Source: Pseudozobellia sp. WGM2 (GTDB lineage Bacteria > Bacteroidota > Bacteroidia > Flavobacteriales > Flavobacteriaceae). Taken from it: a stretch of 64,000 bases of DNA. The notes beneath the pieces are model-generated. The model was not told the DNA's origin. It did no database searches and saw nothing but the letters and a program-made list of their open reading frames with translations. The translations under genes and the position numbers were made by a program. Below are positions 30,772-33,746 of this stretch, piece after piece (within the stretch, counting starts at the first letter, position 1; each line of letters opens with the position of its first letter). The stretch covers positions 310,001 to 374,000 of the forward strand of contig NZ_JADNYK010000001.1 in the NCBI RefSeq assembly GCF_017810075.1, written 5' to 3'.

Positions 30772-33009
<2,238 letters not shown>

Positions 33010-33020
33010 TTAAAGCGGAG

Positions 33021-33028
33021 CAAATATA
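33021..33028 (-). promoter_or_regulatory. -7 promoter box for icd
   Basis: The minus strand reads TATATTTG, a perfect -7 box, 29 bp before the icd ATG. A possible -33 TTTG lies at 33052-33055 on the same strand, with a long 23-bp spacer. Confidence 0.55.
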
Positions 33029-33182
33029 CAATTTTATGTTTTGTTTAAGCTCAAAACATCAACGCCTTTAAGTATAAGGTTTGAACAGCAATATATGGTA
33101 ATTTTATGCTAGGTTCGAAAGGGTAGTTCGATTCTAAGAAGTCTGAACAAAAATTCGCTGATTCGCTGTTCAAAGCGATACT

Positions 33183-33230
33183 AAAAAACAAAATCCATAT
33201 CATTGTATAAATACATTGATATGGATTTTT
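33183..33230 (-). terminator. Orphan rho-independent terminator
   Basis: AAAATCCATATCA (33190-33202) and TGATATGGATTTT (33217-33229) form a perfect 13-bp stem. On the minus strand it is followed by GTTTTTTAG. The nearest upstream gene, rplS, already has its own terminator 460 bp away, so this one should serve another transcript. Confidence 0.7.
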
Positions 33231-33341
33231 AGAAATAGTTGTCAAACTTTCGCACCTATCTTCGTAGGTCGGCAACCATTGATTGCGTTCGCATCACTAT
33301 TTCCACGTTTGAAAAAAACTCTGTTCTTCAGCATTCCACCA
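33187..33341 (-). ncRNA. Candidate small RNA of about 155 nt
   Basis: No gene explains this stretch, yet it is framed by a strong promoter (TTG-N19-TACTTTTG, 33347-33376) and a 13-bp hairpin with a T run (33190-33229) on the same strand. Between them are several complementary blocks: GAAATAGT (33232-33239) with ACTATTTC (33296-33303), TCAAAC (33242-33247) with GTTTGA (33307-33312), a 5-bp ACCTA/TAGGT hairpin and a 6-bp GCAATC/GGTTGC hairpin. The start is placed about 6 bases past the -7 box. It matches no RNA family I can recognise; 6S-like RNA was considered but not shown. Confidence 0.45.
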
Positions 33342-33346
33342 AGCAA

Positions 33347-33376
33347 CAAAAGTATTTTTCTTTCTTATTATTTCAA
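33347..33376 (-). promoter_or_regulatory. Promoter of the candidate small RNA
   Basis: On the minus strand a TTG (33374-33376), a 19-bp spacer and a perfect -7 box TACTTTTG (33347-33354). The spacing equals that of the rplS promoter. Two palindromes, CTTATATAAG (33389-33398) and AAGTACAGTACTT (33396-33408), lie just upstream and could be operator sites. Confidence 0.5.
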
Positions 33377-33408
33377 TGATCTTGTACGCTTATATAAGTA
33401 CAGTACTT

Positions 33409-33687
33409 TTATAAACCGTAGATGCATTCACATAAATTTTCCCAAAGGACGACAGTCATGGTTTTATGCTCGTCAATATGTTATTAATTTGAATTACTTC
33501 AAACTAAAAACCTGACTAAAACAATAATACAAAGAACGTTGACTTCATAACGGTTTCCATATCCACCATCGACAGGTTTTTACTTTAACCGTGATACTAA
33601 TTTAAAAAATAAATTGTTATAAAATCAATTTTTAACATATTTAAAATCAACAGGTTATAAACATTCGATATTAACAATTGTTTATAA
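33409..33687. other. AT-rich non-coding stretch with a long inverted repeat
   Basis: No credible gene was seen on either strand; the open frames crossing it have no family resemblance and run through the regulatory signals. The right part (33596-33690) is very AT-rich. GGTTATAAAC at 33653-33662 and GTTTATAACC at 33680-33689 form a perfect 10-bp inverted repeat with a 17-nt loop. Its arms contain TTATAAACA, one base away from the DnaA box TTATnCACA. An origin or protein-binding region is possible but unproven. Confidence 0.3.
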
Positions 33688-33725
33688 CCAAAAATCCCGT
33701 ATTGAAGTTCATCAATACAGGATTT
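33688..33725 (-). terminator. Terminator of rplS
   Basis: AAATCCCGTATTGA (33692-33705) pairs with TCAATACAGGATTT (33712-33725), with one mismatch, and is followed by Ts on the minus strand. It lies 21 bases past the rplS stop. Confidence 0.8.
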
Positions 33726-33746
33726 ATATTTTTAGCTAGGTAAACC

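Follow-up and report, generated by a model that had tools for sequence, protein, structure and literature searches.

The window (the whole analysed stretch of 64,000 nt from Pseudozobellia sp. WGM2) carries rplS and icd, with an interval between them at positions 32992-33746. An RNA of about 155 nt had been predicted here, transcribed on the minus strand from near 33340 and equipped with its own promoter and terminator. We found that the interval contains an RNA gene on the minus strand whose end is the terminator hairpin named in that prediction, and the perfect 13-bp hairpin and its T run are present at 33229-33183. The claim of an independent minus-strand gene is thus upheld, while the proposed promoter and the size have to be corrected.

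Searching 60 genomes with blastn identified 12 relatives in which the RNA adjoins rplS or icd. A covariance model of the terminator (R1, threshold E 0.001 or better) matched 283 of 397 Flavobacteriaceae genomes, although the true number may be lower because the weakest matches are partly unchecked and a non-syntenic match exists at E 3e-8. Diverged copies, such as that of locus L172, are missed by R1. Zobellia, Maribacter, Cellulophaga, Gelidibacter, Psychroserpens, Kordia, Muriicola and Mangrovimonas are genera among the matches listed. No match was verified outside the Flavobacteriaceae, where the R1 matches inspected showed neither synteny nor the motif of hairpin H1. In total, 171 related loci were compared; on the strand of the RNA, 140 of them have rplS upstream and 158 have icd downstream. 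The RNA occurs as subtype A (about 410 nt, including the window) and subtype B (about 510 nt), which differ in the middle domain and have only the promoter, H1, P1, P2, P3 and the terminator as a common frame. A third, diverged group consists of a few loci (L012, L045, L172). The elements of the locus in the window are:

33643-33687, no strand: upstream site array of palindrome TTATAAACAATTGTTAATAT, GTTTATAACC and TGTTGATTTT, blocks conserved in both subtypes
33597-33628, minus strand: predicted RNA promoter TTG-N21-TAAATTAG, -7 box at 33597-33604, conserved across loci
33183-33592, minus strand: structured non-coding RNA of about 410 nt, with its start predicted near 33592 and its terminator ending near 33183
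33550-33592, minus strand: P0, 5'-terminal hairpin closed by ACGGUU/AACCGU, covarying
33528-33549, minus strand: H1, hairpin UAUGAAG-UCAACGUU-CUUUGUA with ACGUU loop
33366-33529, minus strand: P1, long-range helix (5' strand within 33515-33529, 3' strand within 33366-33377)
33311-33360, minus strand: P2 (33354-33360 with 33311-33319) enclosing hairpin P2a (33323-33347)
33305-33311, minus strand: linker CAAACGU, which is complementary to the loop of H1 and hardly varies in subtype A
33232-33303, minus strand: 3' domain P3-P6, covariation in 47 subtype-A sequences
33296-33303 with 33232-33239, minus strand: P3 (AAATAGT/ACTATTT)
33287-33292 with 33242-33247, minus strand: P4
33272-33286, minus strand: P5, GCAAUCAAUGGUUGC
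33254-33269, minus strand: P6
33183-33230, minus strand: intrinsic terminator, consensus AAAGCCAURUCA..UGAUAUGGCUUU, stem sequence strongly conserved

When the intervals of the relatives are aligned, conservation reaches far upstream of the promoter originally proposed. At a fixed place before the RNA, the pattern TTG-N17..22-TANNTT is found in 94 of 115 distinct loci, compared to 6.6 expected from shuffles, and this comparison shows the predicted promoter to be of the sigma-A type. The 5' end of the RNA is predicted near 33592, about 245 nt upstream of the start proposed before, from the position of the conserved promoter and from the covarying helix P0, which begins exactly there. The same start is obtained when the -7 box (33597-33604) is placed at -12 to -5, the positions mapped for this box in Flavobacterium psychrophilum (PMC9723704). 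Promoter and P0 together put the length in the window at about 410 nt, of which the original prediction covered the last third.

The promoter proposed earlier, TTG-N19-TACTTTTG, is indeed present at 33376-33347 on the minus strand, was found in the window and in one close relative, and fits the flavobacterial sigma-A consensus TAnnTTTG (PMC9723704). It could drive a short RNA of 155 nt in this lineage only, either besides the long RNA or replacing it. However, 2 of 54 subtype-A relatives retain this internal promoter, the promoter pattern by itself occurs in the window at chance level (2 found, 1.87 expected), and its bases fall in the covarying helices P1 and P2: the presumed -33 element is part of the 3' strand of P1, and the presumed -7 element lies between P2 and P2a, overlapping the P2/P2a stretch. 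We consider such a short RNA unlikely. The palindromes at 33389-33408, which had been assigned to the region upstream of this promoter, are in fact inside the RNA.

The full 410 nt fold better than shuffles (z -4.5), and the last 170 nt, terminator included, fold far below theirs (z -5.5). The minimum-energy fold of the window sequence alone differs from the comparative consensus, and the structure therefore rests on the comparison of relatives. Covariation was seen in every domain tested. For P0, the own partner binds better than swapped partners in 47 of 48 sequences, a result that none of 1000 permutations equalled. H1 is 95% paired in subtype A, with two-sided changes in three pairs, and is also found in subtype B; its ACGUU loop is near-invariant in both subtypes. 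P1, which closes a variable domain, has two-sided changes in all nine pairs and 92% pairing in subtype A and is 94% paired in subtype B (column-based count). Two-sided changes affect six of seven pairs in P2 and seven of ten in P2a (subtype A). The AACG of the linker is invariant in 47 subtype-A sequences, and a tertiary contact between CAAACGU and the H1 loop is a conjecture that we offer here.

In the 3' domain, 91.2% of cells are paired in the 47 subtype-A sequences and two-sided changes occur in 18 of 27 pairs (96 two-sided cells); 500 shuffles reached none of these values, and pairing drops to 31-44% when the partners are shifted by one to three columns. Two long-range pairs had been proposed here that cannot nest. 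The first, AAATAGT/ACTATTT, is real and corresponds to P3. The second, TCAAAC/GTTTGA, has no clear covariation beyond its shuffles, its 75% of paired cells being close to the shuffled value, whereas the competing nested pairing CGAAC/GTTTG has 94% of cells paired and 27 two-sided cells. A pseudoknot was rejected here, as the partner of GUUUG is CGAAC, the helix that they form is nested, and so is the 3' domain. The terminator stem is 99% paired in both subtypes, and its sequence is conserved much beyond the needs of termination. Conservation in relatives, on which the original prediction had made itself depend, is found for both the terminator and P3.

Changes in loop length among relatives are not multiples of three, which speaks against coding. 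A conserved promoter, a terminator, a covarying structure and no coding occur together, as is characteristic for an independent, intrinsically terminated non-coding RNA gene. Judged from these comparisons, the locus is very probably a gene in its own right, with a large structured non-coding RNA as its product.

The position of the RNA could also suggest that it serves icd as a 5' leader, riboswitch or attenuator and stops transcription ahead of this gene: both are on the same strand, and the terminator precedes icd by a median of 151 nt. However, in 129 of 158 loci icd is preceded by a TAnnTTTG promoter box of its own, and some lineages retain icd adjoining rplS without the RNA. The RNA is not an icd leader, in our reading, because eight loci with rplS lack a nearby icd and in a further 17 the distance to icd exceeds 700 nt; in total, 25 of 171 loci have no icd directly downstream. 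We regard a cis-regulatory role for icd as very unlikely. At L010, L011, L080, L113 and other loci, the RNA and icd lie about 700 nt apart, a space that would hold one inserted gene; L010 and L011 have a pentapeptide-repeat-like reading frame in this gap.

In several genomes, rplS and icd are adjacent with nothing between them, a clean presence/absence pattern at one site. At loci L173-L179, icd is present and mostly adjoins rplS with no RNA between, which represents loss or absence at one site. One large genus lacking the RNA in its rplS-icd interval may be Flavobacterium. The RNA is missing from whole lineages and is therefore not indispensable in the Flavobacteriaceae.

Directly upstream of the RNA promoter are a palindrome, TTATnAACAATTGTTnATAA, and further TTATnAAC-like half-sites (33643-33687). 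The strict form of the palindrome occurs in 56 of 115 loci, and no second copy was found in the own genome with up to two mismatches allowed. These sites may be DnaA-like boxes or serve a dedicated regulator. A chromosomal replication origin, with repeats resembling DnaA boxes and A/T-rich DNA next to the promoter, was also considered; this reading is in line with the TTATnAACA-like repeats at 33643-33687 and with a distance of about 11 kb between the locus and dnaA in one complete genome. Gene-strand bias was initially suggestive as well. However, two complete genomes show no switch of third-position GC skew at this site, and published predictions for related genera place oriC at mnmG (PMC12843772; PMC11278836). 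The origin was rejected on the skew and the literature, and we consider it extremely improbable. Gene-strand bias and third-position GC skew indicate different origin places in the complete genome G178 (L120-L138) and in G001 (L020-L039).

The RNA had been said to belong to no known family, and the search agrees: Rfam release 15 gave no match at the gathering score for the RNA of the window or of eight diverse relatives, the best permissive matches in two relatives having E-values of 0.72 and 0.26. Across the whole window, Rfam recognizes only the L19 leader ahead of rplS. We rejected tmRNA (RF00023; 144.5 bits) and RNase P RNA (RF00010; 188 bits), each found on a contig other than that of the window, as well as 6S-Flavo RNA (RF01685; 104.4 bits), which is on the contig of the window at a distance of about 308 kb. 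Literature searches returned no earlier description of the RNA in the papers searched; an ‘icd’ motif is listed by Weinberg (2010), but it originates from Pseudomonas.

Regarding function, the RNA would be made in cells and act in trans. By comparison of the relatives, it starts at its own sigma-A-type promoter, folds into P0, H1, P1, P2/P2a and P3-P6, and ends at the intrinsic terminator. In the mechanism that we propose, the conserved hairpins H1 and P5 and the terminator stem may be recognized by one or more proteins, making it a protein-binding (RNP-type) RNA that would scaffold or sequester the bound protein(s). Protein binding is favored because the conserved sequence is located in hairpins and the terminator stem, without a long open seed. 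From sequence comparison, the RNA is thus most likely a trans-acting structured RNA and probably protein-bound; we hold the protein-binding mode itself only tentatively, and the same reserve applies to gene and mechanism taken jointly. The main rival to protein binding is an antisense role via ACGUU-type loops, in which exposed loops (ACGUU of H1 and the linker CAAACGU) would pair with mRNA start regions and thereby alter translation or decay of the targets. The near-invariance of the H1 loop in both subtypes and of the linker in subtype A would suit this role, and Rfp18, a conserved regulatory sRNA of F. psychrophilum (PMC9723704), provides a precedent. The RNA lacks a long unpaired conserved seed, however, and the two ACGU blocks might pair with each other within the molecule. 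We consider the antisense role possible but doubtful. With similar doubt, the RNA could represent a new class of large structured RNA, either a core RNP or a catalytic RNA, that is found in many marine Flavobacteriaceae and has a regulatory site specific to this locus before its promoter.

A structured RNA of 400-500 nt occupies the same site in a large proportion of genomes from a marine family of ecological importance. Having no Rfam family and no description in the papers searched, it is a new and concrete target. With the ends corrected and a structure backed by covariation, deletion, expression and pull-down work is within immediate reach, and the lineages lacking the RNA are natural comparisons.

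Two short elements share the neighborhood of the RNA but are separate from it and lie on the other side of rplS, namely the L19-Flavobacteria leader (RF03130), before rplS in the window, and Flavo-1 (RF01705) in one relative. This Flavo-1 RNA is located between trmD and rplS (L101:2341-2407). Rfp18 of F. psychrophilum is likewise a conserved, structured and independently transcribed flavobacterial RNA (PMC9723704) and may or may not be the same RNA. Rfp numbers follow genome order, with Rfp11 at 182,564 and Rfp36 at 840,245. 6S-Flavo RNA is another structured non-coding RNA of the same bacterial group, but it comprises about 108 positions and is located elsewhere in the genome. OLE, GOLLD and ROOL differ from the RNA described here, which has no Rfam match, in their place and their hosts, but we take them to be similar in kind: RNAs of several hundred nucleotides with many helices, each from a single gene and restricted to certain lineages.
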